From Hydractinia symbiolongicarpus (taxonomy: Eukaryota > Cnidaria > Hydrozoa > Anthoathecata > Hydractiniidae): DNA of 64,000 bases. Location: positions 10,604,001-10,668,000 of the forward strand of contig NC_079882.1 in the NCBI RefSeq assembly GCF_029227915.1, in the 5' to 3' direction. The notes under the pieces were generated by a model. That model made no database searches. It was not told where the DNA came from and saw nothing but the letters and a program-made list of their open reading frames with translations. Below, in pieces: positions 1-44,183 of the stretch (within the stretch, counting starts at the first letter, position 1; the number at the start of each line of letters is the position of its first letter). Position numbers and translations under genes: made by a program.

Positions 1-75
1 ACTAAAAAAAATGACTGGACGTATTATGCCATCACATTCTCAGAAGATAGAATCATGTTTTACTACAATAATACA
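1..75 (+). CDS. Receptor exon 1 in window: LamG-like fragment
   Basis: An open frame from base 1 ends in phase 0 at a GTAAG donor. The residues DWTYYAITFSEDRIMFYYNN match the strand pattern of LamG/concanavalin-A-like domains, where a Trp-x-x-x-A-x-T-F core precedes a ligand-strand Tyr. Whether the exon begins before base 1 cannot be seen. Confidence 0.6.
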
Positions 76-6000: not shown

Positions 6001-8610
6001 TTAAGCTACTAGAGTTTGATTCCCAGAGTACATGAAAACAAGTTCTATAATACCTATAAGGCCCGATTAAACACTTGACATTTTTTTTCTTAACTTTGTT
6101 TAGGTGAAAGAATTTTTCAAGCAATTTCGAGATGAAAAAACAAGATACATCAGTTCCAAACCGCTGGAAATAACGTAAGAAAGACCCAAAACAAATTGAT
6201 CTTTTTTTTACTTTATTGCAAGCATATAGTGTATGATCACACAAACATTGAATCACTAAAGGGCTGTTTGAGTAGTAAATATGTACTTCGTTAAGGCCGG
6301 TTTCCATACAACTGCATTTTGCGCCCAGTCGTAAAAAGCGCCGCGACTTTTGATCTACGCATGCGCATTATCAGAATAATGCCGCTGACCTCGCGCTTTT
6401 GCATGCGCTGGGGCGATTTAAAAAAAGTTGAACAGGCTCTACTTTTTGCAAGCTACATTTTGCGCTTCAGCTTAACAGCCAATCAAAAGGTAGCAATCTA
6501 CATGAATCACGAAAGAATTTTTAATTAGACCATTTCAATATGGCTAGCAAAATCTCGTTTCTATGTTAAATTTTTGTCAAAGCCAAATGAATGTAGAGAA
6601 ACAGAATATATATCAATCAAGTGAAGTAGATGAAAAACAAAATAACATTAATGAGTCTGTGGAGGCACAAAGAAACAACATTGTAAACAAACTTAAAAAG
6701 ACTACTCGTGATCTGACAATATTAAATCCATAAGCAAAACGTTGTATAGTCCTTTGATTCTTCTTTCTATGGAAAGTCGTCTCATCCACATGTTTTTCTT
6801 ACGTATTTTACAACGTTGTTTATTTCTACGCCATAAAAATATTGCTAGGACTACTCTCAAATTTTGCAGTAACAAATATCGTCAGTTTACATCAGCCATG
6901 TGTTGCAAAAAACACGTGAGCAAAAATCGCTGAAATGGTTCGGTATATGTGATAAAAGTCGCGGCGCATTTAACGACTGGGCGCAAAATGTAGCTGTATG
7001 GAAACCGGCCTTTAGCTGTTTCGGCACGATATCTTTTCAACTTTCTTTTTGTACTACACGGTAGAAGGTTTTTCCTGGATGTAAAAGAACCATCCCATAA
7101 GTGGATTGTTTACTCTTGAATTTTATGTTAAGCCAACATTATTTTATTCTACTTTAGTTTCAATGATACTGTGATGCACGTGCCAGTTTTGGTAAAATTG
7201 TCCTATCTGAGTTATGCAATTGAGAATGAATTTTATAATCAGCCAACACAAGAACATACATTTGAAAGCAGAAAATATTTTCTGAATTGGAACAAAACTT
7301 CTTCAAATATTGCAAGTGTGTTCAATTTTTTTATTTATTTTTTTTTGTTGTTTTTGAACTGTGCAGTGAAGTATTTTTTTTTAATACAAGATTTAAGAAA
7401 AATTAGCAAAAAATTAACTCATCTTTTTATCAGGACTGAGAACATTCATTCGAAGAAAGTGTTTATTCAAGCTTTGCAGTTAGTGTTTCTTTTTCAGATT
7501 TTCACTCAAAATTTGGAGGAACATTCCTTAGCATATTCACTCGCATATTAATATATTTTTCCTGTGCTAATATGACCAAAATAAAAACGCCTTAACAATG
7601 GTATTATGCTTGTTTTAGTTCCATTAGAAACATCTTTTACACCAGTGGTAATCAACTCGACATCAATAGTTTTGAAAATTCCAACTCTTGATGAAGAAGA
7701 CAAAAGATACCACTATATGTTCACAGTTGTTTTGTATGAAAATACAAGTGTGGCGTCACAGGTTGCGGAAACAGTTAAACACAAATACAACTTTGAGACT
7801 GGTGTTTTAACACTACTTATAAACAATCTTACTGCATTCAGAAGTTATGAGATCATTTTATGGACACGCACTCATCAGGGTTATAGTAAACGAGCAGTTG
7901 AATCTATACTTACACCTGCAGATGGTACTAGTTTACTTTAATCTTTTTTAAAAAATGTTTTAAAATCTCAAGAATTTGTTGCAACAACTTTTTTAACTGC
8001 CTTTCCAAGTGGGATTTTTGCCATTTTTGTATATTTGTTTGCCTAATTTTGCGTTTTTTGTTAATTTTTTATCTTATATATTAATTCCCTTGCGTGACTA
8101 AAACTGTGAGTCCACGAGACGGAAATCACGGGTTACTTTCTTATGACGTGGCTGTACGCTAAAATTTAACTAAAAAGATTAGGGATGTACTTCATAGAAA
8201 TCGCACATAAGCTGTAAATATATAACCCGCTGCTAATAACGATATAAATATATATACCCTTATGCCAAAAAACTCTATGTTAGCATATATATATAGGTAT
8301 CGCTACATATGAAACGGTATTAGATATTTACAAAGCATACGGACTGTTAAATGAAGTTCCCAGCATAAAACGGAAGTTGTGTTTACGAAAAAGATGGCTG
8401 TTCTTTTTGAGTATTCTCTACTCTTTCATTCAAAATAAATCTTTAAAAAAACATTTGAAGAAGAGCATGGTTTTATAAATTAATCATAGCAATGTTCTGT
8501 AAGGTTTTTTCATGTTTTATTTTCAGTTTTGATTATATTATTGTTGCCAGACATGTTTTATAGCTAGCATCAAAAAGCCAACCACCACCAACAACTAGCT
8601 AGCTAGCTAG

Positions 8611-8681
<71 letters not shown>

Positions 8682-11600
8682 GCCATGTTCTTTATACCTA
8701 GCTAAGTCTCCAGTTTATATTTAAGTGACTAGCTATTAGCTGCTGTAGCTAGCTAATGCTAGCTTTAAACTAAAGATTCCCAGTATATATATTCCCACAA
8801 AACCCATCAAACGTTATTAACCCTGAAGATTTTAAACATTTTCCTGTTTTTTTTTGGTTTGCGAAGTTCTTTTCCTCCAAATATTCTGAAAATAAAGTTC
8901 AGAAATTACTTATTTTTAAAATGTAAATTTAATTTGTTTCAAATTGTGGTTGTGACATTTTCATGTAAGAATTTGTGGGCAAAAACCTTAATCAGCATGC
9001 TAAAAGAACTGATTTTTCTTAATTTAGAATTACTAAACACAACCATTTTCTTACATTTAGTGTAAACTTTTGTGCGTATGGCTTATATTTAATACAACAA
9101 AAGAGCTACTTTGTTGATTTCAATTTTATACTCTTTGTAAGCTATTTTTTTCTTCTTTTTGACATTTTGAATTAACTTATTGCTGTAGAAGGCATATAAT
9201 ATACATGCATATAAAAAAATGGAATTTTGCAAATTTCTGTTTTACCACTCAATTTTTACATTTTATAAGTTATTTGGAACAGAATGGTATGAAATAGACC
9301 AAAATACCTGATCTTAGTTGTTTTTAATTTACAGGCTGTGTCTGTGAAACTTTAAGGGGAACATTTGGTGGAAGACAATGGCATGACATATACTGATAGA
9401 ACTGATTTTTGTTGTGTTAGATGTTATATCTGAACCTTTTTGACATTTTATGTTAATTTTGCGAGAAAGGACTATATATATATACACAGAAAAAGAATTC
9501 AATTTTACACCTTGCAAGCTTTGTTTTTCTATATTTTGTATAAATTCTTACTGGGGAGGACTCCGTGCAATATATCGAAATGACTGATCCTTCTCGATTT
9601 AAATTTGATGTGTTTTAAATCGTATATAGTTTTGGAAATTTTGTGTAAGATTTAATGGGTAAGGGCTAGATGCAATATGTCAAAAAAACTTTTTTTGTTG
9701 AATCAGAAGCACTCCCTACAACCATTCTTTTTTTACAGTTTGTGAAGCTTTTGTGAGAAAAGAGTGTATGCAATATTATCGAAATAACTGATTTTTGTTG
9801 CAAACTGTCTTTCTTAGGCATTTTAGCTTAAAATATTGTTTTAGAGGGCATATGCAGTAGATATATGTACCGAAATAATTGAATTTTGCAAACTTTGATT
9901 TTGTCGTTACCTCTCATTTTTTACATTTTGATTAAACTTTTGTGGGAGACCGTCGGTATGCGAAGGACCAAAATAAGAGATTTTAGTATTATTTAGAATT
10001 TGTATTTTGTGTTGCAAAATTGGTGCAAAAATTGACATAAAATGAACTTATATACAGATTGATTGCTGTTGTTTAACATGACTCATTATGACTTTATATA
10101 TATATTTTATGAAAATTTGTGACAGAATACTATGTGAGATTTGAAATTTTGTTTGCTTTATTGATGGTAAAACAGCATGCAAATTGCTAAAAGGACTTTA
10201 TTAATTTTTGATTTAAACACCGTTTTTTGTTGGCATTTTGTCTAAAGTTTGGTGAGGAAGGACCATATGCATTATATCAAAAAACGTTTTATTGCAATAT
10301 AATTTAACCTTGCAATCCCTTTGTAACACCTTAGATAAAAATTTCTACTTAGGCAAAATTTATTGTTTATTTTTCGCATTTTGTGTCAACCTTTGGCAGG
10401 GTTTGCAATAAACTAACTGATTTTAACATATACAATGAGAGAGATTTGTGTTTGACATTGATCAGCTTTTTTGTATATATGTGGCGTTTTAAGTGATTTA
10501 AATTTTATGGGTGAGATGTATGTTGAAATGCTTTTGGAAACTTCTTTCCGAATAATTTTCGCATTTGTCAGATGGTCAGAGCAAGTAATTTTAGTAGATT
10601 TAGATTTTAAATGTCACATAAATACTGCAGTTGTTGAAAACCTTTAATTTTTTTGGTCATTTATATAATAATGCAGATGTAAGATGCGCACTGCTGTATT
10701 GTTTGTTTTTTGATGGACATATATCTGCTACATAAATTTAATGGAATACAGTGGATTCTTCCACGGGAAACAGCTAGTTGGTTAATAAAACACTTGATAT
10801 TGATTTTAAAATAACCGTTACACTTTCAAACAATGCCAAATTCAAGCAATGGCACCCAAAATTGGGAAACTTTTAAACAATTACTAAATAATTTGCAAGG
10901 GGCAAATAAATGGTCAAAAATTAAACAATTTTTTTCGCAAATAATAAATAACTTTTATAGTGCGAATTCAAGTCCTAAAGTTTGTCAGAGACAAAACATT
11001 TTGAATCCTTGCTATAAATAAAAAGAGTGCTTTAATAATTAAATATCTAAAGTGAGTGAATAAATATTTTGTAAGTTTTAATACTCTGACTTTAAAGATA
11101 TTTGAAATATTTTAAACTTACCCAGTTAAACATTGAATATGAATTCCTAAGTAGCTAGGCAATGTTTGAGGCGAAGTGCAAAAGACCATTGTTTATAAAA
11201 CATCTATTCTTTTTTTCTTTTTGATTATTAAATTCTTTTTTTAGTTAATTTCATCCCACCACAAGATGTTGAAGCATTCAACACCAGTCATACCTCAATA
11301 AAAGTTAAATGGTCACTATATGACAATGTAAAGCATTGGAACAGCGAGAATATGACAATCAGAATATATTGGAAAAAAGTTGATTTCGCTTTTAACACCA
11401 CACAAAACAACTTGTCGTCATACAATTATACAGATATGCACTCAACGTTAAAAGATTTCATCGACTTTAACTATGGAGATGATGTTATAACCTCATATGA
11501 AATAACAGGTTTAGAGGCTTTTACTAATTATAGCATTTTGGTTGCAACAGTAAACGATGTTGGAGTTGGTGCTTTTGCTAGTATCTACTGTAGATCCGGC

Positions 11601-14600
11601 CAGTGGTGTAAGTATTCTGATAATTTTAATATCTAATTTAATTTCTTCCTATTCCAAACTAATAGCAAGTGCTAAAGATTTCAAACATCTCTTAAAGTAA
11701 AAATTACTTCTGGCTTGCTTTATTGGCTTTATCAAAAGACATGGTGTACTTAATGCTTTAATGCTTGTGATCGCATTCTATTTATAAAATTTAACACCAG
11801 TATAAATATGTAACTTTGGGTCCTTTTTGACATTCGTGGACTTTATCTATACAAGGCAAAAAATAAAGTGGACATCTAATTCCATTCTTTTCATTTTCTT
11901 TTTAAGCTTTTTTTCTATTCAGTGATACAAATACTTTTTCATTATCCTTATTTTCTGTCAGGTATTTAGGTGCTTTTCCGTCGTTTTTTTTCTTTTCCCC
12001 AGACATTCCATAAGTATACGCGTCTTGAATGTGTAGACTTCTGTGCACTGTTTCACGCAGTTACCATGCAGTGCGTGCAATTATAATATGTAAGTCCTCT
12101 CCCTTTGAGACATTTGTCTTTTTACAATTTAGTACCTGAAAGCCTATATAATATATCTGCTGCTCATACGGCGAAAGATGTTATAACAATGCAATGGAAA
12201 TACCCTGACAATATCGAAGTTTTTAATTCATGGATATTAGATGGTTTCAACATCACTCTCTATCCAACATTAAATACTCTGGAGAATATCACAATGTCAC
12301 TTTCCAGTAGTGAAAGATCAAAGAATTTAAGCCTGGGTTATTTTAAAAGATACAGAGCGGTTATCTTCCCGTATAACATAGTTGGAATGGGGCCACCGGT
12401 GGACATATGTTTTGCAACACCAAAAGGAGGTAGTGTTTAACTTTTAACATTTCTATTTACTATCTCGTTTTTATTGATGTATTGCTGTCTAGTAACATGG
12501 CAAGCGAAAAATAATGTGAAAAGTTTACAGTGGAATTGTGCATGTGTCTTTTTAGTTCCATCTTCTGCACCAGAAACACTTGAGTTGGTTAATGCCACGC
12601 ATCTTTTACTGAATATCAAGTTTGGTAATGTATCAACACAAAATGAAAATGGTGTCATCCTGTATTATCATATCAGATATAAATCATTGGATTGGCTTGA
12701 TAACACACACAATAGGTGGACCACAAACTTGACTCATACGAAAGAAGATATACAAATGTGGAAAAATATGTCCAATTTTATTGTCCCTTGCAGTACGCTT
12801 TCAAGGGTTGATCCTCAGTCATCGCAGGTTAGAAATTATACCATCCAAAATTTACATCCACATACTCGCTATGAAGTGAGCGTTGCTGCATGCACGGAAG
12901 TTAATTGTAGCAGTCACTTTTTTACGAAAACATTTTTGACAGCCGAGACATACCCCTCATGTGCACCTAACCTTACAATGTGGAATACCTCTTCGTCTTC
13001 TCTGTTTGTTACAATCGATCCACTTGGACATTTTTGTATGAATGGTATTTTAAAGTTTTATCATTTCGTTTTACTGGAGAGTGAGTTGTATGGAGAGATT
13101 TATAATTTATCACTAAATGATATTCTAAAAGAAAATGTTGAAAATTTGACTGTGAATACGCATACTGCAACAGGATTAAAGAAATATTGGAATTACACTG
13201 CTGTTGTGTATGTTGAGAACAGTATTGGTAATGGGCCACACAGTTTTAAATGGGCTGTGACTGCTCAAGATGGTAAGTTGGTATTTTAAAAAAACATTTA
13301 TCTACCCGTCAAGATATCGTTTATACAATCCACAATTAATGGTATGAAATTTTATTTTCATAGCTCCTGATGGCCCACCTACGAACATATCTGGATATGC
13401 AAACAGTAGCAGCTCAATCATCTTGAATGTAACTTTGCCTAAACGTGAACATAGAAATGGCATTATCCGAGGCTACAAGGTTCTATTGTACAATCTGCAG
13501 AACTTTAAAGCACTGGAGTTTGCGTATAACATAACAGATGAAATATCAAACGTGTTTTCGTTTGAAGGACTTGCTAAATACACAGACTATGAAGTTAAGG
13601 TTAAAGCATTCACTGTAATTGGAAATGGGCCATACTCTTCTCCTTTTAACATTAGAACCTTTGAAGACGGTAAGACATACTATTCTTAATAACTCTGGCG
13701 AACATAAAAACTAAGAGCAGGTATTATGATTGTCTTTAAAAATTTAATTTACTTTTAGTTCCCAGCCTTGCAGCAGTAAATTTTACCATAGTGTCAGTCA
13801 CTGAAAGTAGTGTGAATGTTATGTGGGAGGATATACCGGATGACTTTCTTCATGGCGTGTATGTCTCTTCAAAATTGGAACTAACTGGGGTTTTAGCAAA
13901 TGGTACAACACATGCTGAATCAAAGAATGTTACTCCAAATGCTTTTATTTATCCACACCGGACTCAATTTGCCGGTTTATTCCCATACACTAGTTACAAT
14001 ATTTCCATTCAAGGATGCACAAGGGTGGGTTGCGGAGTGAAAAATTTCTCTTATTTTGAAACTGAGGAAATGGGTGAGTATGTGGTACTTTTTCTTGTTT
14101 CTTTCTGATATGCACAGCTTCACTAATTTTATTATTTACAACATACAAATAAGATATATTATGTTTAAAGTCAAAAGGTGTCTACCTAAATGCAAGCTAT
14201 TCAACATCGCAATGTTATGAAGAGCATTTTAAGGGATAATAGCATCAGTAAAAACGTTTTAATGCTTTTATTATTTCGTCAGCTATAATTGTTAGAATAT
14301 CACAAAAAGCATAAAGAACAGACGCTATGAACTTGTTGAAAAAGTACATAAAATTTGAGTTTTCATAGAAATATTAGATAATAAATTCCAAAACTGCCCT
14401 CAGAAAAAAATCCGTAATTTTTAACTAATATTTTTGGCTTTTAATGTAAATCATGTTAATTTGGTCTTCTTACAATTTGTCACCTGTATTATAAATAATA
14501 TTTTGATGACTTTTAAGGTCCAATTGGTGTGGTACAGAACCTTCAAGATCAAAAGAAAAACATAACAGAAAGCTTGCATTTTAATTGGTCAGATATTCGT

Positions 14601-17600
14601 CCGATGGAAAAGCGAGGGCGTATCACATATTTTAATATCTCGTTATACAAATTTCTAAAGCCTTGGGCGAGTATTAGTAACGAAGCAATATCATTTCTTG
14701 TACCTGCTAATCAATTCAACGCATCAGTTTACAACTTGGATAATTTTACTTCTTATAAGGTGATGGTTTTTGCAATGAACAAAAGAGGACATGGTCCAGT
14801 TGCTTTCATCGAATTACTAACACCAGAGAATGGTAAGCTTACTAGAATAGAAATTAAAAGAAGGTTTTTTGTTACTAGAAAATTATACCCATCTGTTACT
14901 TGAAAATTATCCCAATTCGTTACTTATGTTTTAGTTCCATTATATTCTCCACAAATAACATTTGCAAATAACATTAGCAGTTCAGGAATAAATGTGAAAT
15001 TTACGAAACTACCTCAATCATCGTGGCAAGGTGAACTATTAGGTTACCATGTTTATTACCAACATGCAGATGAACCTACCAATTGCACTGCTGGACAAAT
15101 ATGTAAGAAGATGGAGTTTAAAGATTGCATTGGTAATGATATAAATACTTGTGATGTTACAGAACTCGATCTGCATACAAACTACAGTGTATGCATTGCT
15201 GGTTACACGAGTGCTGGAGCAGGACCAATGAGTGAATGTGTTTATGTAGTTACTGATACGTTTGGTTAGTGTTCATTCTACTTTTGGTATACGTTACTTT
15301 TTCTTGTTTTGTATGGTGTTTTGCATCTTCCTTCCTTGTGAATAATGTTGTATGTGTATTTAAAGCTTTTTCTTATTAGTTAATGGTAATTGGACAGAAT
15401 GGAGTGAATGGGGAAACTGTGATAGGAGCTGTGCAAATGGTACTGAAGCGAGGTTACGATTTTGTATTAACCCAATACCAGCAAGAGGTGGAGCCAATTG
15501 TTCTGGCTTAGATGTTGAAAGAAGACCATGCAATGATTTTCCTTGTCCAGGTTAGCTTCGCTAATTTTGTAATCTTCTGTCATTGTGATAGAATATGTGC
15601 TTACTTTTGAAACGGTTTTTGTTGTCTTGCAACTGGTGCGAGGAATGTTTCAGTCTGGTTTGTTTATTTAGGTTATTACCTTGCCAAACCACTAACTGAT
15701 TGTACACAAACATGCAACAATCTTGGAAATGCATTTGGTTGCTCAAATGTAATTGATACAATTAATACAACACATGTTTTCGAGACGTCTATCAATGGAT
15801 ATGATTATACTGATGTACAGGGTGTAGTTTGTTCGTCTGATGATTCGCAGAAAACGTATTCGATGGAACATCATCCTTCTTTCTCTGTCAATGGGAATAT
15901 TTGCTCTGGATATGCACATGTTCCTCGAAGAATTAAATGTTCTATTGATGACACGTTAAGTGAAGAGTATCGGCGATTGTGTTACTGTATAGACAAAGGT
16001 AAATATGGACTGCAGTATTTAAATTTTTTATTAGCATAGAAGTTTAAAGTTTTCAACAGCCTTTCAACTTGTAATTGTAAAAGCATTTTTACCAAGTTTT
16101 TGAGTGTGGTGTGTTCCATTGTTGTCACTATCATTTTTAATGATTATTGATCATACTCAGAAGCAATAATCAGTGATTGCAAACTGATAGTGTATCTGAA
16201 CCTCCATGCCTTATTATTTATCCTCCTTTTTTAATTTCTTCTGTTTTGTTAACAACTTTACTTACTGCAGTTATTGTTTTATATTAGTTATTTCTTGTTT
16301 CAAGTTTTTTAATTTAATTTTTTTAATGTGTTTTTTATAAAGAACAAACGTATTGGAGCATAGGTTATTGATTGTTGGGATAAGAACACAAAGATGTCAT
16401 CTACGTTTATTGCCTTACAAATTTTAATTTCTTCAACGTGTGTGTAATTTCTTTGATTTTAGAATCTTTGGGCTATACTGAATGGGGTATATGGAGTCCT
16501 TGTTCAAAGACATGTGGTTCAGGTTTATCAAGGAGGCTTCGGATTTGTCGTCTGGAAAGTGGTTGCAACAAAACTGAGGATCTTAATGATTGTAACACAC
16601 AGCTATGTCCGAGTAAGTAAAAATTGGTTACCTGCAAATTAGTATTTTCATGACACATACCCTAAAACGAGAAATTGCATTTATGTTATGAGCAGAAAAA
16701 GTTGTGGGTCCTTTTACAAAATATTTATAGTCAACCTTTTTTGTTGGTATTTTTAAGTTGATGGCGCCTGGGGTGGATGGTCAGAATATAGTGGATGTAC
16801 AAAATCATGTGGCATTGGTAAGATAAAAAGAACAAGACAATGCAATTCTCCGACACCTTTACATGGCGGTGCTCCATGTGTAGGAACTGATGTACAAGAG
16901 ATTATCGGTTGCAACCCTGATCCCTGTCCACGTATGTTTTGTTTTCTTTTTATTAAAAAAAATGGGGCAGTTTTATAGTTGGGGATATCATCTAACTTTC
17001 TGCGACAATTTTCTAGAAAATGGAAGTTGGAGTGATTGGTCTTCGTTAGAATTGTGCTCACAACCATGTGGTGTTGGTGGTACGAAGCTTCAAAGACGAT
17101 ATTGTAACAATCCAGCACCTTCCTATGGTGGGGCTTTATGTAGTGGTCCAAATCAAAACAATGTTTCATGCAACGAGGATGTCGTTTGTAGAGGTATGCA
17201 CACTTGTTAAATAGTTTGTTTGAAGCAGATGTTCTTAAAATTTTGATATAAATTTAGTATAAATTTTTCAACCAGCAGGTTTTTGTCACAATAAAACCTT
17301 TTCCAATGCAACAAGTACTTGAACATAAATCAAAGCTAAACTTTCTCTAGCGATTTAATTATGAGTAAGCAGTAACAGATGTTTAATAACAAAAGATTTT
17401 TAAGCTTTATTTCTTTGCCCAACGATATACCAGGATTTTAAATGTATATTTTTACGCCATTCAAGAGAGAGAACAATGATATAACATCGATGCGCTTGAA
17501 AAGACTTGTTTTTACCAATAATAGAATTTAACTGGTGTGTACAATGAAAACAATTATTTAACTAAACAATGTAAACGCTTTATGCTGACAAAGGTAAATA

Positions 17601-20600
17601 TCTTACGCATCACTATAAAAATACTATAATTTTACATAAAATAATTTTTGATAGAGGACCAGATTTGTAAGATCATCCCAACAATAGTTAATTCACTTTC
17701 GAATTTTAGCAAACTTGTCAAGTTTTAACTGCAGATTTGTTAAATTTGCAAGGTCTTCACAGACCCTAAAGTGTGTTGTTCTTTATGGATTCATGTCAGA
17801 ATTCGCAACTTTTGCGTTTTAAGCCAATTTTATATCATTTCTGCAGATTGCAAAATTGTAGCTAGCTACAAAAGGGGAGATTTGTTGCTGGGAATTGGTA
17901 AATTATTTGCCCATCTGATTCTGGTTCTATCAGGTGCAAAACTGGCTACATGTTTTTTAGATTGTCATGTGATTCGTGGTGCCTGACCAAAGGTAGTTCA
18001 ACAGAAATTTAACTCCAGATTAAGGAAGTAATATACACGATTAATTCAATTTTTTTAAGTTTAATTCATTTTGGCAGAACTTTAGAAACCTCATTTTTTT
18101 GTCGATGCATACCTGCGTGTCTCTTGTAGCTTCTATATGATGACCAGGATTTCCTAATTGTTATCAGAAAGTGAAAACAATTAAGAACTTACTGCTTGAA
18201 GTTATCATTAGCATATGCTATAAAAAAGCAAGCAACGACGTATGTGGATAAAAAAGAGCTTCAAAAACCTATTCACTTTAGTGTCTCATCTTTACCTTCA
18301 ACTTTTTTAGCCTCAACAATTTAAAAATGCACCCATCCACTTTCAAATTATGCTCACCTCCAACTTATACAAGTGGATTTCTTTTTTATTTGCTTTTATT
18401 TAGATAGTTCAGTATTTTCAGGGTAACTACTTACTTCTCCAGTTATTAAATGTTGCAAGCTATCAAAATATTTCGATCCAAGCAGTATATCATATTTATT
18501 TACTGTAATTCATTTAAATTTTTAACTTTAAAAAAGCTAAAATTCTCTTACAAAAAAATATACAGCTACTCTGACATAGTACGAACAGCTTTCTCCTGTT
18601 CATCACAATCTTGCCGCCTCGCTAATTTTTTTTGCGTCGCAATAATTAGTATCTGCGCCAATCAGGTTTTATATTGAACCAACCCCCTCCAGGGCCATGT
18701 TCGGCTCTCGTCCAAGACACAAAAAAGACAACAGGGAAGGAGGTTGGTTATGTACTGGACCTATGTATCTGCAAAAGTGACGCATTTAGAGTTGAATTTA
18801 TTATTATTATTCAATTGATGCTATACATCCATACTGCAAAAGAGCCAAAAAATTGTGAATTCTTTATGATTTTGTCAAGGGTTATAAAACTGCCACCATA
18901 TGTCTAAGAAAATTTAGTTAAAACGAAGGAGACTCCACGTGTTGCAGCAATATTCTATTTCAGGAAACAACGCCCTGTGTCTGGCTTTTTTGTTAAATCT
19001 ATTTTTTTTACAATCTTTCATAGTTTTTATAACACTAACATCTTTACTGCATGTACCAACAGAATATGTAAACATATTGAGAATAGCACGTTCATGGACT
19101 TTATTTTAATTCACAATATTTCAATCATGGCGAATTCCGTTGTGGGACTTTATTAGGAAAATGAAAATAAACAAATGTAATAACCTCAATTTTCATTTTA
19201 GAAGTTGGAGTGAACTATCTTGTAAGGTTGACTAATGAAACCTGGCATTATACCATGCACTATGCAACTTCGGAGATGGGAAGGAACCTGCATAACAAGC
19301 TAAAAAGAGAAGTAAATTAAAACTCGTCTATTTTTATTTTCCTTTTTTATTTCGCTGGATACAAAATAGCTGTTATTAAATTTCTGTTGTTAGTGAAAAT
19401 TGACTTTTTGTTGTGTACAGGTGCTGAAATTTATGGAAAAAAGTAGAATTGGTGCATCAGTAATTGATAGGGTCGAAGTTACTCAGTTAAGGTAAACTGG
19501 CATTTTTGAATGACCATCCTCTTTGTGTCAGAAGTCAATTTTTGTAAAATTCTCAAGGAATGGGAAAAAAGTCACAAACACTGGTTGATTTATAAATAAA
19601 GTTAATTTATATTATATTGAGTATGTCACTTTTTCACCTATTGGTAATTATGGGAGAATGTTGGCATTGGTGGCATGGTGATTTACATGTGTCTGTCCAG
19701 AGGAGTATGATCACAAAGAAATAGCGTTAAATTTAACGTTATATCGCTGCAATGAACAAAATAAATAACGCTAATTAACGCTAAATAAATTCCACTTTAA
19801 CGTTACAGCTTAAACATGAGATAGCACTATAGCGGTAATTAATCATTTTGGCACTCTGTGCTTTATATCTTTTTAGAAGAAGTTTACAAGGGTACTTTTT
19901 ATTATTATTTCAGCCGTGGTAGTGTCATTGCAAATTTTACCGTTTTCTATTTTGGCAATCCATTTATCGAAACATTGATTCTGCAAAACGCGATTGACGA
20001 CATCGGTTTCATAAACACTATCCCAGTGCAACTGTTGGCTGTCACCTCCCAAAATGGTAACACATTTTTTATACATTTCTAAGATTTTTAAACTGGAAAA
20101 TTTGCAATCCGTTCTAGTCAGACATTTTTCTCTTAATTAAAATTGGTTAATCTTTAAGTATATATCCTTACCCTTTAGTTCCAGATGTTACACCTACGTT
20201 TACTGCTTTTGCTGAGGACTCCAGTACAATTACAATAAGTTGGAAAGACGATGAAAATTGGGATGTATCAACGTTTGGTGAAGAGTTTTACATGTATTAC
20301 ATATTCTACCGGGATTTGACAATTCCCAATTTAAACTGGACCTCATATGGTACATTGAATAAAACAGTGACACTTCCTGACTTGAATGCTAACACATTGT
20401 ATGGGATTCGTTTGGTCGTTGCATTAATTGACGCTAATGGCATTGCTTCATCGGAAAAGAAAATCAGAACTAAAGAAGGCGGTAAGTTGGCGAAAAAGTA
20501 ATAGAGTAGAAGTTTCATTACATATTTTTGAAATTAATAAAAAAATTCATTTCATATTCAGTTCCATTCATCGCTCCACCGAATTTTATTTATCAAGAAA

Positions 20601-23600
20601 TGAGCCCAACCTCAATATATTTGGATTGGGGTGAGATACCGAAAAATGAAGTCCCAGGAACTTTGCTTGGTTATAAAATTGTTTATAAAAGATTGGATAA
20701 CAACTTAACCCGTGAAACAACAACATCAGCTATTATGCTACAAAGAACGTTGAAAGGTTTAAAACCTGCTACGTTATACCTGTTTACTATACATGGTTAC
20801 ACGGTTGCTGGTGATGGTCCGATTTCTTTTGTGACCCTAAAAACAGCATTCGATGGTACGTATTCCAAGATGTTATAATCCGTTTTGCATAGTGATTTAA
20901 AAACAATTATTTTCTTAACATTTTAATTTAATGAATACTTTCATTCTCATAGCACCTGGAGTAGCTCCACCTAAGGTCGCTTGGGAAGATCGATTTTCAT
21001 CATACCAGATAAAAATAAGTTGGAATCCCATACCAGCAGAAGAGGAAAATGGTTATGTAGTTGGATATAAGATAAAATACACTCTTATACGTCAAGCAGA
21101 TAGAGATGTGACAGTAGGTGAAAAGCCATCAGTTAAAGAAGTTGATCGCTTCACATTCTCTACGTATATAGATGGCTTATCCCCTTACTCTATGTATAAA
21201 TTCGAAATCTTTGCGTTTGCTAAAGAAGGGGATGGCCCGGTATTTACCTTTACAGCAGGTACGTGAACGCATTCTTTCTTATTGTTGTTTGGTGTTATTT
21301 CTAAACCATATTTCTAATGACGGCAGATTCTTGCCGAATTAACTTGACCACAAAGAGTTGTTTTTTTATGCGTAGAAATTTACTGAGTGAGAATGTATTT
21401 AAAACATGCAAGCTAAATGGACCTATTTCCATATCCATTTTCGTTTCGCGAAATATACATACTAAAATACCGAATTCAAGAAAGTCAAGATAATTTTCAG
21501 TTTGTTTATCATTCTGAGCTAGATTTACTAGCTTCTTTTAACTACGATGATATAAGTTGTAGCTAGCTGGCTGGTTTATTCCAAACAAACGTGAAGTTTC
21601 AAGCTGTTTATTAAAATTAGTGATATTGCTGGCATATATCCTGTGTCTCCAGTTACTGAGTGTACCTTATTTTTCAAACAACATCTGTAAAATTGGATAC
21701 TGGTGTGCATGATTACCATCTTAGTATTTTGTTGCCAAATAAAATATTCCACTTGGTGAAAACAGTTTCTTTCTTTGGAAGCTCACTTGGCAAAGCATGT
21801 TTGCTTTTTTCCATTCAATTTAAAAATTGCCCCTTGAGAAAAAAACACAATAATTTAAAAACAAACTATTCTAACGTACTGCCATGCAAAAAAAACTTTT
21901 TTATCCAAAAAGGCTTGTCATTTTAAACTCTAACTGTAATCCGATAGATAACAAAGTTAAAATATTTTTGTGACGTGGTCAATCGAAATTCTTATTTTAA
22001 TATTTTCACAAATCGACGTTGGAAAAATTCCATGAAGATTATTTGCCGTGAGTAAACAAAATTCTGCAAGATCAAGTTTTAAAATTATATGCGTAAAAGG
22101 GAGAAAATACATATAAAACTAGTTTATAATAATAGTAAACTGTACATCAAGTTTTAGTACTAAACTAACCAGAATAAAGTAAATTAAAAATTTATTTACA
22201 TCGTTCTAAAAATGTGACAAGTTATTATAATAGGTTTAGCTAGCTAACATATACCAAAAGATGCCACTCTAAAATCTACAATATCTCAACGATCCGAATA
22301 AGCGCCCCCTATTCTCGAGTAGGGGGCTTATTAGACCATGGGGCTTATTTACAAATTTTTTTCCAACCCTGTGGCGATTATTGGGCACGGGGCGCTTAAT
22401 CCGTCATATACGGTAGGTCTATTTACGATTAATTTTGTTTTTTATTTATTTATTTTTTATTTTTAGAAACGTGTAAATGTCCTGAAATACTATATTCCAA
22501 CTTTTACTCTTTGAAACCTTTCATACACCAAGAAAAGCAAGGCTTGCGGCAAGTGCACGGATTTTTCCCACGGCTTCTGAAGCGGATTCTACGAGGAGTA
22601 TGCACAAAATGCAAGGCGTATAATTCTCCTGAGGTTTACTTCGACCGAACATTTTCAGGCTCGCCATCGGAAAAACTGAATGCTCGCCAAATGAAAGACA
22701 ATATCGGATCAACAGTGCAATTAAGCATGCCTGTATATGGCAAATTTACAGTGAAAAAATATGCTGGTATTTATCCATACATAAGTATCGTGAGAACGCA
22801 AGGAAGTGCAGCTATTATGTACGATCAAAAGGTGAGAAGATATCAGATGAAAGACTTGTTAAGAAATGTAGTTGCATCATGGACAACCGTTGCAATAATG
22901 GTACTAATGTCCATAATATGTGGATGGTTACTGTGGTTTGCTGTAAGTAGTTTATTTTCTACGTCAATTTCTTGCCATAATAATACTCCATGTGGATATC
23001 TTTAATAATTGGATGCCTTTATTTTAGGAACAAACATCATCAAATAGTGATTTTGAAATCCACAGTGCATTTAAAGGATCTTTTCAAGGAATATGGGCAG
23101 CGTTCGTAACAATGTCAACTGTGGGGTATGCATTTAGTTGTGATTTTCCCTATTTGCAAAAGGTTATGTAAAAATTAGATATTAGAAAAGTAGAAAACAT
23201 TAACTTTTAGGTATGGGGATTACACTCCGAGCACACGGGCATCTAAACTGATCACAATATGCTGGACATTGATTGGTCTGATCACTACTAGCATATTCAT
23301 TGCATCAATATCGACTCATTTGGTTTCGATTAGTTTGCGACAGGAAGCAAAATTATATGGCGTCCTGGTAAGAAAATTTACCATTCGAAAATTTATGGTT
23401 GGAGAAGATCAGTAAAACCTTTACAATGATAAAATATTATATATACTATGTAAAATATTTTTGCTGGGACGTAAAAACCCTCTTTGTCGGAATGAAGGGC
23501 ACATCAAATATCAAACTTGTTTAGAATAATAGGAATTAATTATTGTCACGATTGGAATTGACTTCAAATTTTTGCTTGCTTAAATCTCATCAATTTATTT

Positions 23601-26129
23601 ACACAACTCGAAAGATTTTCCTAAAGTAAATATCAGTGTCTAATTGGCGTTGCCTAAACTGAAGTCAAAATACAAGCCCTTAAGTTTTAATTCTCCCAAT
23701 ATGTCTAGACTGCTGTTATTCCTGGGACTGCAGAGTATAGTTTAGCTGTTGCACGAAACGCAAAGATATACAACGTAAGTCGACCGATAGATGTATTGGA
23801 AGCTGTCAGCAAAGGCATTGTTCCGATTGGTCTGCTCGATGCATACACAGCAACTAGTTACAGTGACCACCTAAAGAAAATGACTCTTACTGTAAAAAAA
23901 ATATTTGACACAAACAGCGGGTATGGAACTGTGTTGTCGGGTGGCTTGGAAAGCCTCGAAGATGATATTCGCAGTTACGTTGACGCAAATGAAGGAAGCA
24001 TTAGTGCGTTTATTAATAGTCAGACAAAAGTTTTAAAAGTAAGCTTACGATTTAAAGTGCTTTAAAAATGTTTGAGAAGAAGAAGTCAGTCAAAAAAAAC
24101 AATCCGAAAATAAGCATTATTTTAAATAAAAACCATCAAGAAAACCTTTTTCCTTTCTATTGGTTTTCAAATGCTTTTGTAGTACTTTCGTTAATTGACA
24201 TTTTAGAAAAAACCTTTTACGTCCGATTACTTCTAAGGGGGCTCCTTGATTAAACATTTCCGCTGTTTCTGTAAATATAAATTTACGGGACAGCGGAAAA
24301 TGTATACCTTTATGTTGTCCTGTGTAACAACTATACGTATATTTTCTTTTAGCCAAATGTGACCATTATTGAGACTGAATTAATTCCAAAAGATGAATTG
24401 GTAGAGTTTTCAATTTTGTTGGTGTATGCTTTCCTTGCAATGTGTGTGTTTGGAATCTGTATATGGCTATGCTGTCTTAAAAGAAGAAAATTAAAGAAAA
24501 TTCAACCTCTAGGTATTGTTCAGAAGCATTTTTGAAATGTTTTTATCCTATTGCCTCGCGTAAAGGGGCAGCGCCTGTAACAAGGACAAGACAAATGCGT
24601 TTTTTCTGTCCACCAATCTAGACGAAATGTTTAAGATTTAAAATGTCTTACGTAATGCATTTATTAGCTTACTGAGGCTGGGAAGTCTTAAAAAATTAAG
24701 TATAAGTGAAGACTATCCTATCCTGGACTTCTAGAGTGTTATCAAAGAGTGAAATCTCTTAAAACATGGAGAATAGCGTTTCTACATACATGTGGATATT
24801 CATTGACACTTGTATGTTCGTATATCCTTTTGAAAGAAAGCAAGACGTATGATATACGCAAATAACCTCGCGAATAAAGTTTACAAAAAGCTGTCTATCA
24901 AATTGTGATTTTTGTTACGAAGTTAGACACAACATATTTTACTATTCAAATACGCAATAATACTTATTACTTATTATTATTATATTTCAAAATTGAACTT
25001 GAACGGAAAATTCCTCGATATTTTAATTTTCGATGGATCCGTCTTGGGTGAACCGACTGACAGGAAGAAGAAAGACCACAAACCCCACCCAAAATTTGCT
25101 AAATTCAGTTAATTCTGCCTACATTCACTTTTGAAAAGTTTGGTGGAAACACCTTTACTTTACCAGTTAGTTAAATAATGCTTTTGAACACGTATCGTAT
25201 CTTTTTAAAAAAGAAAAAGAAAAAATAGTTACCAAGATGAGATTCGAACACACGACGACTCCCGTGTCGGTGCCCAGAGAGGCAAAAATTTCCATTCTTG
25301 TAGGATACGAGCTTGTAATAATTATGTTGCATAAACGTTTCAAACATAATAAGCGCATTGAACAAGAAATTTCATAACATTGAAAAAATATACAGAGTGC
25401 TTTTAAAAAAATTATGTCAATAACGTTTCCTTCATTCTCAGAAACAAACTCAATGTGTTTCTACACACACACATTTGACGACGAAAGTCCTTACATTAAA
25501 TTATATTTGAAAAACTAAATGAAGTAGATCAAATTTCCTACTGTCTATTATCTTTGATTCCTGATTGTTGTTAATTGGATTATTCCGAGGGAGCAAAGGG
25601 TCACTTCAAAGGCATATTGTAAGGGGACAGGGTAAAATAGGATTGGCAGTTTTTTCTCTATTCATTAAACTATACACAGCTTAATTACAGTTGTATGGAC
25701 ATGATCGCCAACGGTCTGTTTAAAACTTACTGAGGTACGAATTAAGTGTGTTCAATATACGCAATGAAGTTTTGTTAAAACTTAACATTTCATAACTTTG
25801 TTATCTTGGAACTGGTAGTAATTTCACGAAACTATTTTGTTTTAGCAACAAAAGAGGAAGCAACAAGAGAGGAAGTGCTGAAAACTGAACTGATACCACG
25901 TATCAGTAATTTCCATCAGAGCTTTGTCGCTATTGTGAAAAAGATGGATGAGAAACATTTTGGTGAACTATCTCGTCTGCAAGTCTTACGAACAAACTTT
26001 ATGCGACTTATGACAAGGCATGGTCATACTAAAAAGGAGGTGAATGATCGATTTGAAGCAATACGAAAAAAGCACTTGAAAAAAATTAGAAAAAGAAATA
26101 GATTAAAATATTTAGAAACAAATATTTAA
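1..26129 (+). CDS. Giant FN3/TSP1/SEA ectodomain fused to a K+-filter ionotropic-glutamate-receptor-like channel (5' partial)
   Basis: Thirty-two exons join without a frame break: 1-75, 1352-1520, 2583-2750, 3180-3788, 5681-5790, 6104-6174, 7158-7315, 7619-7924, 11245-11607, 12133-12429, 12556-13272, 13364-13669, 13759-14073, 14518-14832, 14935-15264, 15380-15550, 15672-15998, 16463-16612, 16758-16931, 17017-17193, 19202-19311, 19421-19491, 19914-20056, 20179-20481, 20562-20855, 20953-21258, 22467-22942, 23028-23125, 23211-23367, 23709-24038, 24353-24512, 25846-26129. They total 8040 nt including TAA. The start lies upstream of the window, so residue numbers here are partial. Predicted product: a plasma-membrane protein with a ~2310-residue extracellular region of adhesion modules, an iGluR-type pore containing TVGYGD, and a ~107-residue basic cytoplasmic tail. 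Inference: a cation (probably K+) channel gated or tethered by extracellular contacts. Small extra phase 1-1 exons in long introns could have been missed. Confidence 0.85.
1174..1250. repeat. Long imperfect hairpin in receptor intron 1
   Basis: ACAAAGTA-CAGAAAGGGTTAA at the left pairs with TTAACCCTTTCTTT-ACTTTGT at the right, around an AT-rich TATATTA core. It is probably a small fold-back element or MITE remnant. Confidence 0.6.
1352..1520 (+). CDS. Receptor exon 2: C-terminal part of first LamG-like domain
   Basis: An AG acceptor at 1350-1351 and a GTAAAT donor at 1521 bound a 169-nt exon entering in phase 0 and leaving in phase 1. The segment FYSGYMSCFCLYDKVLKPFQ resembles the closing strand of LamG-like domains (F-x-G-x-I/M-x-x-x-x-x-Y-D-x-x-L). 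It completes the domain begun in exon 1. Confidence 0.7.
2583..2750 (+). CDS. Receptor exon 3: Cys-rich linker
   Basis: A 168-nt phase 1-1 exon between a TTTTCAG acceptor and a GTATGT donor. It encodes a short segment with five cysteines, including CKNGLSVAFGDRKCAC. The spacing is vaguely EGF-like but incomplete, so no domain is assigned. Confidence 0.55.
3180..3788 (+). CDS. Receptor exon 4: second LamG-like (concanavalin-A-like) domain
   Basis: A 609-nt phase 1-1 exon, the second largest single-exon block of the gene. GFWFYFP, WIYISIRLEEDKLGFYLN and the closing CIDEFSIFK follow the LamG/pentraxin-like strand order. Several N-glycosylation sequons support an extracellular location. Family membership (LamG, pentraxin or other concanavalin-A-like fold) is not resolved. 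Confidence 0.7.
3789..5680 (+). other. Receptor intron 4 (1.9 kb)
   Basis: AT-rich intron with no coding block I can support. A possible 24-nt phase 1-1 micro-exon after the CACAG at about 3909 was considered but left out. The flanking exons join in phase without it. Confidence 0.5.
5681..5790 (+). CDS. Receptor exon 5: SEA domain 1, first part
   Basis: A 110-nt exon entering in phase 1 and leaving in phase 0, with a GTGATA donor. It encodes a beta strand AVITLDITSSDFMSF then the start of a helix, as in SEA domains. The length equals that of exon 21, the matching exon of the second SEA domain. Confidence 0.65.
6104..6174 (+). CDS. Receptor exon 6: SEA domain 1, middle
   Basis: A 71-nt exon (phase 0 in, phase 2 out) encoding VKEFFKQFRDEKTRYISS, a helix and turn of the SEA fold. 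Its length equals exon 22 of the second SEA domain exactly. Confidence 0.65.
6294..7011. mobile_element. 718-bp nonautonomous Harbinger-like element in receptor intron 6
   Basis: The ends are inverted repeats of about 60 bp: AGGCCGGTTTCCATACAACT at 6294 and its near-complement ending GGAAACCGGCCT at 7011. They share the GCGCCCAGTCGT and GCGCCGCGACTTTT blocks. A TTA is duplicated on both sides (6291-6293 and 7012-7014). TTA target duplication with such TIRs fits PIF/Harbinger MITEs. It holds no transposase. Confidence 0.8.
7158..7315 (+). CDS. Receptor exon 7: SEA domain 1, last part
   Basis: A 158-nt exon (phase 2 in, phase 1 out). The strand FNDTVMHVPVLVKLSYL sits where SEA domains carry the G-S-V-V-V autocleavage loop, but here the loop reads F-N-D-T-V. 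Cleavage is therefore not expected in this copy. The exon continues past the last strand before the first FN3. Confidence 0.6.
7619..7924 (+). CDS. Receptor exon 8: FN3 domain 1
   Basis: A phase 1-1 single-exon FN3 of 306 nt. It starts at a TTTTAG acceptor followed by a Pro codon and ends with Asp-Gly at the donor. Core features: SIVLKIP in strand B, YMFTVVLYE in strand C, and LTAFRSYEIILWTRT in strands E-F. Confidence 0.75.
8595..8678. repeat. (TAGC)n and (TA)n microsatellite
   Basis: A CTAG/TAGC run followed by about 33 TA units at 8612-8678, in receptor intron 8. Array length is likely polymorphic. Confidence 0.95.
8830..10480. repeat. Degenerate ~100-bp tandem repeat filling receptor intron 8
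   Basis: Blocks near 9375, 9555, 9665, 9757, 9845, 9950, 10255 and 10400 share a diverged pattern: TTTTGTGRGA, then TATGCAATATATCGAAATAA, then CTGATTTTTGTTG. The spacing is about 80-110 bp with gaps. It looks like an old minisatellite. There is a 62-codon open frame at 10833-11021, but nothing suggests that it is a gene. Confidence 0.6.
11245..11607 (+). CDS. Receptor exon 9: FN3 domain 2
   Basis: A 363-nt phase 1-1 exon. SIKVKWSLYD provides the strand-B Trp, and LEAFTNYSILVATVNDVGVG gives the FN3 Tyr corner and F strand. It is slightly longer than its siblings. Confidence 0.8.
12133..12429 (+). CDS. Receptor exon 10: FN3 domain 3
   Basis: A 297-nt phase 1-1 exon. VITMQWKYPDN supplies the strand-B Trp, FNITLYP strand C, and YFKRYRAVIFPYNIVGMGPP strands E to G. 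Confidence 0.78.
12556..13272 (+). CDS. Receptor exon 11: FN3 domains 4 and 5
   Basis: A 717-nt phase 1-1 exon that holds two FN3 domains, the only double-FN3 exon seen here. Domain 4 includes LHPHTRYEVSVAACTEVNCS, domain 5 LKKYWNYTAVVYVENSIGNG. Extra cysteines suggest lineage-specific disulfides. The exon probably arose by intron loss between two single-exon domains. Confidence 0.82.
13364..13669 (+). CDS. Receptor exon 12: FN3 domain 6
   Basis: A 306-nt phase 1-1 exon. GYKVLLYNL forms strand C, and LAKYTDYEVKVKAFTVIGNG is a canonical FN3 E-F segment. The spacing to neighbouring exons is under 100 bp. Confidence 0.85.
13759..14073 (+). CDS. Receptor exon 13: FN3 domain 7
   Basis: A 315-nt phase 1-1 exon with SVNVMWEDIP in strand B and LFPYTSYNISIQGCTRVGCG in strands E-F. 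The paired CxxxxCG cysteines resemble those of domain 4. Confidence 0.82.
14518..14832 (+). CDS. Receptor exon 14: FN3 domain 8
   Basis: A 315-nt phase 1-1 exon. SLHFNWSDIRP carries the strand-B Trp, and LDNFTSYKVMVFAMNKRGHG the Tyr corner and F strand. Confidence 0.85.
14935..15264 (+). CDS. Receptor exon 15: FN3 domain 9
   Basis: A 330-nt phase 1-1 exon. GYHVYYQHADEP forms strand C and LDLHTNYSVCIAGYTSAGAG strands E-F. An inserted loop with four cysteines is unusual for FN3. It is the last FN3 before the TSP1 block. Confidence 0.85.
15380..15550 (+). CDS. Receptor exon 16: TSP1 repeat 1
   Basis: A 171-nt phase 1-1 exon. NWTEWSEWGNCDRSCANGTE holds the W-x-x-W-x-x-W ladder and CxxxC start. 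The following RLRFC, GGANC and PCNDFPCP complete the six-cysteine TSP1 pattern. The tryptophans are candidate C-mannosylation sites. Confidence 0.92.
15672..15998 (+). CDS. Receptor exon 17: Cys-rich unit between TSP1 repeats 1 and 2
   Basis: A 327-nt phase 1-1 exon encoding about 108 residues with eight cysteines: DCTQTCNNLG near the start, a central VVCSSDD, then ICSG, IKCS and RRLCYCID at the end. The ends recall WSC/apple-like Cys patterns, but I do not recognise the family. It interrupts the TSP1 run as a separate module. Confidence 0.7.
16463..16612 (+). CDS. Receptor exon 18: TSP1 repeat 2
   Basis: A 150-nt phase 1-1 exon: YTEWGIWSPCSKTCGSGLSR followed by RLRIC, GCN, DCNTQLCPS. This is a full TSP1 repeat with the CSxTCGxG heart. 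Confidence 0.92.
16758..16931 (+). CDS. Receptor exon 19: TSP1 repeat 3
   Basis: A 174-nt phase 1-1 exon: AWGGWSEYSGCTKSCGIGK, then RTRQCNSP, HGGAPC and CNPDPCP. All six cysteines and the Trp ladder are present. Confidence 0.92.
17017..17193 (+). CDS. Receptor exon 20: TSP1 repeat 4
   Basis: A 177-nt phase 1-1 exon: SWSDWSSLELCSQPCGVGG, then RRYCNNP, YGGALC and CNEDVVC. Only one of the usual basic ladder residues is missing. A 2-kb intron follows. Confidence 0.92.
17194..19201 (+). other. Receptor intron 20 (2.0 kb)
   Basis: No supported coding block. It includes a short inverted repeat (ACCAACCCCCTCC near 18678 with GGAGGTTGG near 18740), probably a mobile-element scrap. Confidence 0.5.
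19202..19311 (+). CDS. Receptor exon 21: SEA domain 2, first part
   Basis: A 110-nt exon (phase 1 in, phase 0 out). NYLVRLTNETWHYTMHYATS is the first SEA strand plus helix start. Length and phases match exon 5, indicating that the whole three-exon SEA cassette was duplicated. Confidence 0.75.
19421..19491 (+). CDS. Receptor exon 22: SEA domain 2, middle
   Basis: A 71-nt exon (phase 0 in, phase 2 out), encoding VLKFMEKSRIGASVIDRVEV. It is identical in length and phase to exon 6. Confidence 0.75.
19914..20056 (+). CDS. Receptor exon 23: SEA domain 2, cleavage-type loop and last strands
   Basis: A 143-nt exon (phase 2 in, phase 1 out). It encodes SRGSVIANFTVFYF, where Gly-Ser-Val (codons at 19918-19926) matches the G-S-V-V-V autoproteolysis loop of SEA domains such as MUC1. 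Residues are about 1830-1843 of the partial protein. The cut would separate the TSP1-bearing half from the FN3-channel half. Confidence 0.78.
20179..20481 (+). CDS. Receptor exon 24: FN3 domain 10
   Basis: A 303-nt phase 1-1 exon. TITISWKDDE holds the strand-B Trp, YYIFYRDL strand C and LNANTLYGIRLVVAL strands E-F. It is the first FN3 after the second SEA domain. Confidence 0.85.
20562..20855 (+). CDS. Receptor exon 25: FN3 domain 11
   Basis: A 294-nt phase 1-1 exon with the most canonical FN3 sequence of the gene: SIYLDWGEIP, GYKIVYKRLD and LKPATLYLFTIHGYTVAGDG. Confidence 0.9.
20953..21258 (+). CDS. Receptor exon 26: FN3 domain 12
   Basis: A 306-nt phase 1-1 exon: IKISWNPIPAEEENGYVVGY, IKYTLIR and LSPYSMYKFEIFAFAKEGDG. 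It is the last adhesion module before the channel. Confidence 0.9.
22288..22412. mobile_element. Small GC-rich palindromic MITE in receptor intron 26
   Basis: CCGAATAAGCGCCCC at the left is an inverted, near-identical copy of GGGGCGCTTAATCCG at the right. Further GGGGGCTTATT and GGGGCTTATTT blocks lie between them. Base composition is far more GC-rich than the surroundings. No clear target duplication was identified. Confidence 0.5.
22467..22942 (+). CDS. Receptor exon 27: S1-like lobe and M1 membrane helix
   Basis: A 476-nt exon (phase 1 in, phase 0 out). After a CKC segment, GFFPRLLKRILRG resembles the G-x-x-x-D-L-L-x-x-I helix of solute-binding S1 lobes. The stretch ending YPYISIVRTQG aligns with the P-Y/F-x-x strand at the S1 end. 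VASWTTVAIMVLMSIICGWL is a hydrophobic helix that I call M1. At about 130 residues before M1 the lobe is shorter than typical iGluR S1, and I cannot place the conserved ligand-binding Arg. Confidence 0.8.
23028..23125 (+). CDS. Receptor exon 28: pore helix and start of selectivity filter
   Basis: A 98-nt exon (phase 0 in, phase 2 out). FKGSFQGIWAAFVTMSTV followed by a split Gly codon is the GluR0-type pore helix (…G-I/L-W-x-A-x-V-T-M-x-T-V-G). The Trp-Ala and Thr-Met-Ser-Thr residues match K+ channel pore helices. Confidence 0.9.
23211..23367 (+). CDS. Receptor exon 29: K+ filter GYGD and M2 helix
   Basis: A 157-nt exon (phase 2 in, phase 0 out). It completes T-V-G-Y-G-D-Y-T-P (about residues 2368-2376 of the partial protein) and continues SKLITICWTLIGLITTSIFI, the M2 helix, then ASISTHL. 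The A-S-I/L-S/T end of the inner helix is also seen in GluR0-family channels. Confidence 0.92.
23709..24038 (+). CDS. Receptor exon 30: S2-like ligand-binding lobe
   Basis: A 330-nt phase 0-0 exon. TAVIPGTAEYSLAVARNAKI matches the S2 start (V-x-x-G-T). IDVLEAVSKGIVPIGLLDAY matches the A-L-x-x-G-x-x-D/I-A-x-x-x-D segment of solute-binding lobes. GYGTVLSGGLESLEDDIRSY matches the Y-G-I/T-A/V-x-x-x-G-S-x-L region near the S2 end. Confidence 0.82.
24353..24512 (+). CDS. Receptor exon 31: M3 helix
   Basis: A 160-nt exon (phase 0 in, phase 1 out). FSILLVYAFLAMCVFGICIW is a strong membrane helix followed by the basic stop-transfer sequence KRRKLKK. GluR0 lacks this third helix while eukaryotic iGluRs have it, so the topology is eukaryotic and the tail is cytoplasmic. 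Confidence 0.85.
25846..26129 (+). CDS. Receptor exon 32: cytoplasmic C-terminal tail and stop
   Basis: A 284-nt last exon ending in TAA at 26127-26129. The tail is charged, helix-rich and very basic near its end (KKHLKKIRKRNRLKY). It may form a coiled coil or bind lipid, calmodulin or a scaffold, but no named motif is evident. Confidence 0.8.
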
Positions 26130-44182: not shown

Positions 44183-44183
44183 G

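Follow-up and report, generated by a model that had tools for sequence, protein, structure and literature searches.

The window, a stretch of 64,000 nucleotides of the Hydractinia symbiolongicarpus genome, carries a gene whose predicted product joins the core of an ionotropic glutamate receptor (iGluR) with a K+-channel filter to a stalk of adhesion modules, and the same layout recurs in a multigene family found across Cnidaria. The best explanation that we can offer, and one that we hold with about even confidence, is a cleaved adhesion receptor in which a giant glycosylated stalk sits on a K+-filter iGluR core and gates K+ efflux. The anatomy of the protein is near certain, its frame, modules, hydropathy topology, predicted fold and conservation across Cnidaria being either established or strongly supported; its cleavage, gating, ligand and selectivity are inferred.

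Domain layout of the predicted protein

The gene was read by hand and its exons were joined by script. Its 32 exons are spread over bases 1-26129 of the + strand, with 31 of 31 introns of the GT...AG type, agreeing phases and no internal stops. The 5' end of the gene lies beyond the window, and the predicted product has 2669 residues. Exon 24 begins at 20179 and the last base of the stop codon is 26129, so that the assembly reproduces both the single 32-exon frame from adhesion modules to basic tail described in the original prediction and its coordinates, 20179..26129. The order of S1, M1, a pore with TVGYGD, M2, S2 and M3 proposed there agrees with the assembly, with hydropathy and with structure models of the paralog P0008. 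The features are as follows.

1..3788, + strand: exons 1-4, LamG/concanavalin-like N-terminal part (weak Laminin_G_3 match; Laminin_G_3 above cut-off N-terminally in relatives P0003 and P0128)
5681..7315, + strand: exons 5-7, putative first SEA-like module, cleavage motif not found (assigned from exon lengths and phases as in exons 21-22)
7619..15264, + strand: exons 8-15, FN3 array (fn3 E 6e-70 over the ectodomain, in 10 stretches that include exons 24-26)
15380..17193, + strand: exons 16, 18, 19 and 20, four TSP1 repeats (TSP_1 E 6e-27)
19202..20056, + strand: exons 21-23, second SEA module (SEA E 0.045; aligns with P0001, P0002, P0128, P0003 and P0004)
19918..19923, + strand: candidate SEA cleavage site, G-S of LSRGSVIANF, residues 1822-1823 (motif and alignment with relatives)
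20179..21258, + strand: exons 24-26, three FN3 domains adjoining the channel (exon assembly, Pfam)
22467..22942, + strand: exon 27, S1 lobe with conserved C-x-C ... C-x-x-C, plus M1 (assembly, models, alignments)
23028..23367, + strand: exons 28-29, pore loop with TVGYGD, then M2 (Ion_trans_2 E 1e-11; GYGD in 20/20 fetched loci)
23709..24038, + strand: exon 30, S2 lobe with conserved acidic residue, LLDA (profile match to bacterial GluR0-type S2; models)
24353..24512, + strand: exon 31, linker and M3 (assembly, model, hydropathy)
25846..26129, + strand: exon 32, basic, helical cytoplasmic tail and stop codon (assembly, model)

The Pfam matches to fn3 and TSP_1 fall within residues 1-2168, in ten and four stretches respectively, while Laminin_G_3 (residues 3-79, E 6e-4) and SEA lie under the Pfam cut-off. 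No leucine-binding-like N-terminal domain is present among the 14 Pfam families matched at E <= 1 in residues 1-2168, the 5' end of the gene being beyond the window, which fits the earlier claim that an adhesion stalk of more than 2000 residues takes the place of that domain. The channel part matches Ion_trans_2 as listed and Ion_trans (E 1.5e-8).

Hydropathy indicates three membrane segments (M1, M2 and M3) and none in the ectodomain. The ectodomain contains 59 N-glycosylation sequons, compared with a mean of 26 and a maximum of 38 in 300 shuffled sequences, and the C-terminal tail contains none. Together these distributions point to the order of an extracellular stalk, ligand lobes and pore, and a cytoplasmic tail. 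Exons 5-6 agree with exons 21-22 in length (110 and 71 nt) and phase, which suggests that the two SEA-like modules arose by internal duplication. Between the first and second TSP1 repeats, exon 17 (15672-15998) encodes a 109-residue cysteine module without a Pfam match, which by eye occupies the same place in the Hydractinia, Clytia and Rhopilema relatives.

Elsewhere, the window contains a LINE-type element with endonuclease and reverse-transcriptase open reading frames at 58244-60568 (+) and 52640-55603 (-), adjoined by an inverted partial copy (arms of 533, 470 and 180 nt, 96-99%) that may explain a strong swing in GC skew at 54-62 kb. A transposase-like gene at 48400-49889 (+) is read in two overlapping frames, the second matching DDE_1 and the first no family; a UQ_con match at 29341-29469 (-) is the final exon of a gene for a ubiquitin-conjugating enzyme; and tandem arrays are found at 44175-44492 (101-bp units) and 61616-62068 (53-bp units).

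Relatives in other cnidarians

Scored over the channel region, a full-length search recovered seven proteins, from Hydractinia, Clytia, Rhopilema, one EukProt record, Nematostella (labelled PTPRQ) and Hydra (two), all seven with an FN3 stalk. A second search with the Nematostella query, in which scoring was confined to the 7980 candidates with the most words in common, contributed Dendronephthya and Oculina. The same domain order, for which a search of other cnidarian proteins had been proposed, is thus present in nine predicted proteins, one of them a EukProt record and the others from seven named cnidarian species, and the one-off receptor implied by the original prediction must be corrected to a cnidarian multigene family. 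These relatives span Hydrozoa, Scyphozoa, Octocorallia and Hexacorallia. There were no named matches outside Cnidaria in the two protein searches, whose sensitivity is limited. Also noted were a short K+-filter protein of Clytia, P0011, and, from a JGI metagenome, a K+-filter receptor whose C-terminal tail is long (P0013, 661 aa).

We found no description of this layout in the literature searched, which consisted of titles and abstract openings, with subscription papers mostly outside its scope, and which included PMC12226733, PMC12332018, PMC3483616, PMC6307864, PMC12225738 and PMC6954182.

Paralogs in the Hydractinia genome

The search of the H. symbiolongicarpus genome itself (480.9 Mb, 76 contigs, the window being C8:10604001-10668000) with the channel query gave at least 88 matches and at least 19 loci with an S1-M1 exon, the window included. 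Twenty loci (L029-L048) were fetched, comprising the 18 other S1-M1 loci and two more, and such genes apparently number about twenty in this genome. Since the annotated protein P0001 (LOC130655123) matches a locus at C8:9.516 Mb at 96-100%, and P0008 (LOC130655034) is an exact match to L029/L030 in the exons read, both are paralogs of the window gene. In a tree of S1 exons (24 rows, leaving out the three short rows C8_27.66, C15_3.90 and C8_25.32) the window groups with C8 paralogs and Clytia, and the deep branches are unsettled.

Identical S1 exons are shared by L029 and L030, 9.7 kb apart on C8, and by L040 and L041, 3.6 Mb apart on C1, suggesting either very recent duplications or duplication in the assembly. 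The S1 exon readings of L036, L045 and L046 end after 71-87 residues, and some copies may therefore be pseudogenes or have extra introns. In terms of domain composition, L047 (C12:16719500-16729499) has the same channel core with calcium-binding EGF repeats replacing FN3. L048 (C4:5499000-5506000, 2299-3693, -) is a stalkless single exon of 464 residues with a signal-like start judged by eye, to which Clytia P0011 is similar, and a minimal receptor of this type is possibly near the ancestral form.

The junction of stalk and channel

Exons 26 and 27 of the window gene are joined across a phase-1 intron of 1208 nt. At this point the last FN3 strand passes into S1 without a linker, as it does in all nine relatives (P0128 being judged from its sequence), and the junction of a last FN3 strand with an S1 that starts with TC is found in 9/9 predicted relatives and in 18 fetched paralog loci. 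S1 carries a C-x-C at its start and a C-x-x-C that closes its first long helix; these cysteines are invariant in the eight rows of alignment A3, which excludes the two Hydra rows, and were read in 18/18 paralog S1 exons, the C-x-C being part of one search pattern. In Hydra the pattern is partly lost, with two of the four columns still invariant. The natural reading is that two disulphides would staple the stalk to the upper lobe, and stapling of this kind would give the stalk a mechanical link to the cleft.

An origin of this layout by chance is very unlikely, because it recurs in nine predicted proteins and in paralog loci, and we rejected it. We also consider it very nearly discounted that the gene model is an artefact in which an adhesion gene and a channel gene are merely adjacent. 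The length of the 26/27 intron speaks for such an artefact, as does the fact that the join in the window is known from genomic sequence alone; the annotated paralog P0008, moreover, begins within its last FN3 and consists of the channel and part of one FN3. This nearly stalkless protein seems to be a truncated tandem copy at L030, where just one FN3 exon lies between the channel and the end of the neighbouring gene, and L030 may itself be the annotated P0008. Against two separate genes, which the original prediction had named as the outcome that would overturn it, stand the consistent phase of the join, the identical junction in the nine predicted proteins and in the 18 paralog loci, and the presence of ectodomain-module matches upstream of the S1 exon in all of these 18 loci, with fn3 confirmed by Pfam in 8/8 loci tested. 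Because the Dendronephthya query had been split at a GYGD that occurs by chance within a TSP1 repeat, its channel rows include ectodomain and its ectodomain piece is TSP1 only; all 18 loci keep ectodomain matches from other queries.

Predicted fold and putative binding residues of the ligand domain

Of the matches that the original prediction had proposed to look for in the channel part, Ion_trans_2 was found, whereas Lig_chan remained sub-threshold (20.8 bits against a cut-off of 30.8), although it exceeds the curated cut-off in relatives P0003, P0128 and P0011. The corresponding search for the ligand domain failed, as S1 and S2, singly or joined, have no Pfam match up to E 10. Cnidarian S1 gives no profile signal against bacterial S1 (hhalign probability 0-2), and the S1 of the short relatives L048 and P0011 scores 79 over 45 columns against cnidarian S1 and 4.6 against bacterial S1. 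Cnidarian S2 scores 47.8 over 92 columns against bacterial GluR0-type S2; in an impure control it scored 33.7 over 32 columns against bacterial S1, probably reflecting shared membrane-edge sequence. Sequence searches of the PDB matched K+ channels over the pore and no iGluR among the best 60 of 252 and the best 60 of 488 matches.

Both structure models are of the paralog P0008 rather than of the spliced window protein, with a mean pLDDT of 79.2 compared with 62.6 for the less confident control model. They predict a bilobed ligand domain like that of GluR0, AvGluR1 and animal iGluRs, with low TM-scores to iGluRs for the whole query chain (0.28-0.46 and 0.30-0.45). A bilobed ligand domain of the periplasmic-binding-protein type, split by the pore, is thus strongly supported by modelling. 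The simple 2-TM K+ channel that would have contradicted the original prediction is not what these P0008 models give.

The acidic residue of S2 (LLDA), which we take to be the amine-binding one from an alignment with GluA2 and GluN1 sequence, is an invariant D in alignment A1. Among the 19 loci L029-L047 it reads D in the 18 that aligned there, all but L044, and L048 has N. At the position of the carboxylate-binding arginine, the start of helix D, the window has K and the family has R, K, N, H, E or other residues, as judged from alignment register only, so this arginine looks unconserved. The ligand could possibly be an amine-bearing compound other than a standard alpha-amino acid, or there may be none.

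Pore sequence

The filter reads T-V/I-GYGD in all nine relatives, and GYGD is present in all 20 fetched loci. In 19 of them GYGD opens an exon at an identical phase-2 intron, which in the window gene interrupts TVGYGD at 23126-23210; a preceding T-V or T-I was read in 10 of these 19 split-filter loci, exon 28 having been missed by the script in the others. The filter of L048, TSVGYGD, is intronless. That GYGD has been kept across loci and relatives suggests selection for the filter; K+ selectivity of the window channel is a prediction. The SYTANLAA motif at the end of the pore-lining helix is absent from the window protein, which reads TSIFIASISTHLVS, while ordinary iGluRs in the same genome have SYTAxL in 5/7 exons read.

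Candidate cleavage sites in the stalk

A candidate cut site is present in 10/10 proteins, the window protein and its nine relatives, 163-652 residues upstream of the junction. Four (window, P0001, Clytia and Dendronephthya) have the SEA-type GSVI, which at residue 1822 of the window protein aligns with relatives, and six (Rhopilema, the EukProt record, Nematostella, the two Hydra proteins and Oculina) have a polybasic furin-type site. Two of these six, Rhopilema and the EukProt record, carry the site as an insertion in the SEA loop, at the place occupied by GSVI in the others. In shuffled sequences, 0.01-0.7 furin-type matches occur per protein by chance; this control covered the furin pattern only, the GS[VIL] motif also occurs outside SEA modules, and the furin-site reading is post hoc. 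Extra furin-type matches occur elsewhere in the stalks of Rhopilema, the EukProt record and Oculina, for which 0.3-0.7 are expected by chance. Among the paralog loci, GSVI or GSIV lies in a SEA-like context in 7/18, and no cleavage motif was found in the other 11/18 within the roughly 7 kb covered upstream (less for L030); these paralogs may be cut elsewhere or left uncut. The stalk is probably cut by a protease ahead of the channel. The same two routes of SEA cleavage are described in the excerpted text of PMC6954182 for MUC1 and Notch, and for GPR116/GPR110 versus GPR126, where the cleaved halves are said to stay associated until force or ligand parts them.

Proposed mechanism and alternatives

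Under the explanation that we favour, the stalk would be cut in its SEA module, by autoproteolysis at GSVI here and by a furin-type protease in scyphozoans, and the halves would remain joined non-covalently. The receptor would be a tetramer of four subunits. Its input would be either a pull on the LamG/TSP1/FN3 stalk or the attachment of a partner or of matrix to this stalk, and gating by contact, matrix or force is our proposal. The signal would pass through the linker-free junction with its four conserved cysteines to the ligand lobe, and the pore would open, whether or not the cleft holds a small amine-bearing ligand. The resulting K+ efflux would hyperpolarise the cell, so that the whole would resemble an adhesion GPCR with an inhibitory iGluR as its signalling half. 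Only tentatively do we extend this to the family, which could be a cnidarian ionotropic counterpart of adhesion GPCRs, consisting of two-chain, SEA- or furin-cleaved receptors with an inhibitory K+ core, gated through the stalk by contact, matrix or force, whose members would differ in their surface-recognition specificities.

It is possible, though we consider it rather doubtful, that these proteins are ordinary ligand-gated K+ channels acting as chemoreceptors, gated by a dissolved amine or amino acid, with a stalk that only anchors or assembles the channel in place of the usual N-terminal domain. A functional amine pocket is indicated by the modelled bilobed fold together with the conserved acidic residue of S2, and stalkless or nearly stalkless forms do seem to exist, namely L048 in the same genome, the similar P0011 in Clytia and the apparent copy P0008. 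However, by alignment register the window has K where the carboxylate arginine is expected and the family varies there, and stalks of 1228-3571 residues with recurring module types exceed, in our judgement, what anchoring would need.

Two further alternatives concern the pore. A K+ filter is not proof of K+ selectivity, because AvGluR1 with its TXVGYG motif is Na+-permeable according to the excerpted text of the review PMC3483616. A non-selective cation channel, which would be excitatory, is nevertheless improbable given the GYGD of all fetched loci and the T-V/I-GYGD of the nine relatives. The constraint on the pore sequence across the family also argues against an adhesion or matrix receptor whose channel half is non-conducting or metabotropic, which we regard as highly improbable. 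The apparent lack of conservation of the ligand arginine would be consistent with such a receptor, and delta-type iGluRs, for which a non-conducting or metabotropic role has been proposed, likewise combine adhesion with an iGluR core.

Comparison with known receptors

The family is a large and old animal group of K+-filter glutamate receptors with the ligand domain under adhesion modules and a probable protease cut. It opens the questions of how a chemical receptor is converted into a contact receptor, of whether an inhibitory use of the iGluR fold is possible and of what use a hydroid makes of about 20 such genes, for which Hydractinia, Clytia and Nematostella are suitable systems.

GluR0 of Synechocystis and Nostoc and related bacterial K+-filter receptors appear to share the S1-M1-P-M2-S2 order, the K+ filter and, as modelled, the ligand-core fold with the cnidarian family, and the first matches of the family profile include proteins with SBP_bac_3 and a K+ pore. 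GluR0 is without a stalk and, in the descriptions available in part, has two transmembrane domains only, whereas in the cnidarian family S1 has diverged beyond the reach of profiles and the ligand arginine seems not to be conserved. For AvGluR1 of the rotifer Adineta vaga, reportedly the subject of a study by Janovjak in 2011, an FN3/TSP1 stalk is not reported in the portions of the literature covered. Animal iGluRs (AMPA, NMDA, delta and epsilon) would have the topology and fold of the ligand-binding and transmembrane domains in common with the family, but the window protein is without SYTANLAA and has a K+ filter in place of the Q/R/N site. Adhesion GPCRs, mucins and Notch, in partial accounts, have a modular ectodomain with a SEA domain cut by itself or by furin, as proposed here; their membrane part is seven helices or a single helix, whereas here it is a channel. 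The polycystin-1 family also carries a giant cleaved ectodomain on a channel-like protein, but with an unrelated TRP-type membrane part and other modules. Review excerpts describe two K+-filter glutamate receptors, one bacterial and one from a rotifer, as pointing to an origin of iGluRs from K+ channels. The core described here, a K+-filter iGluR, is of a known kind; the stalk, the spread through Cnidaria, the size of the family and the probable cleavage are new.
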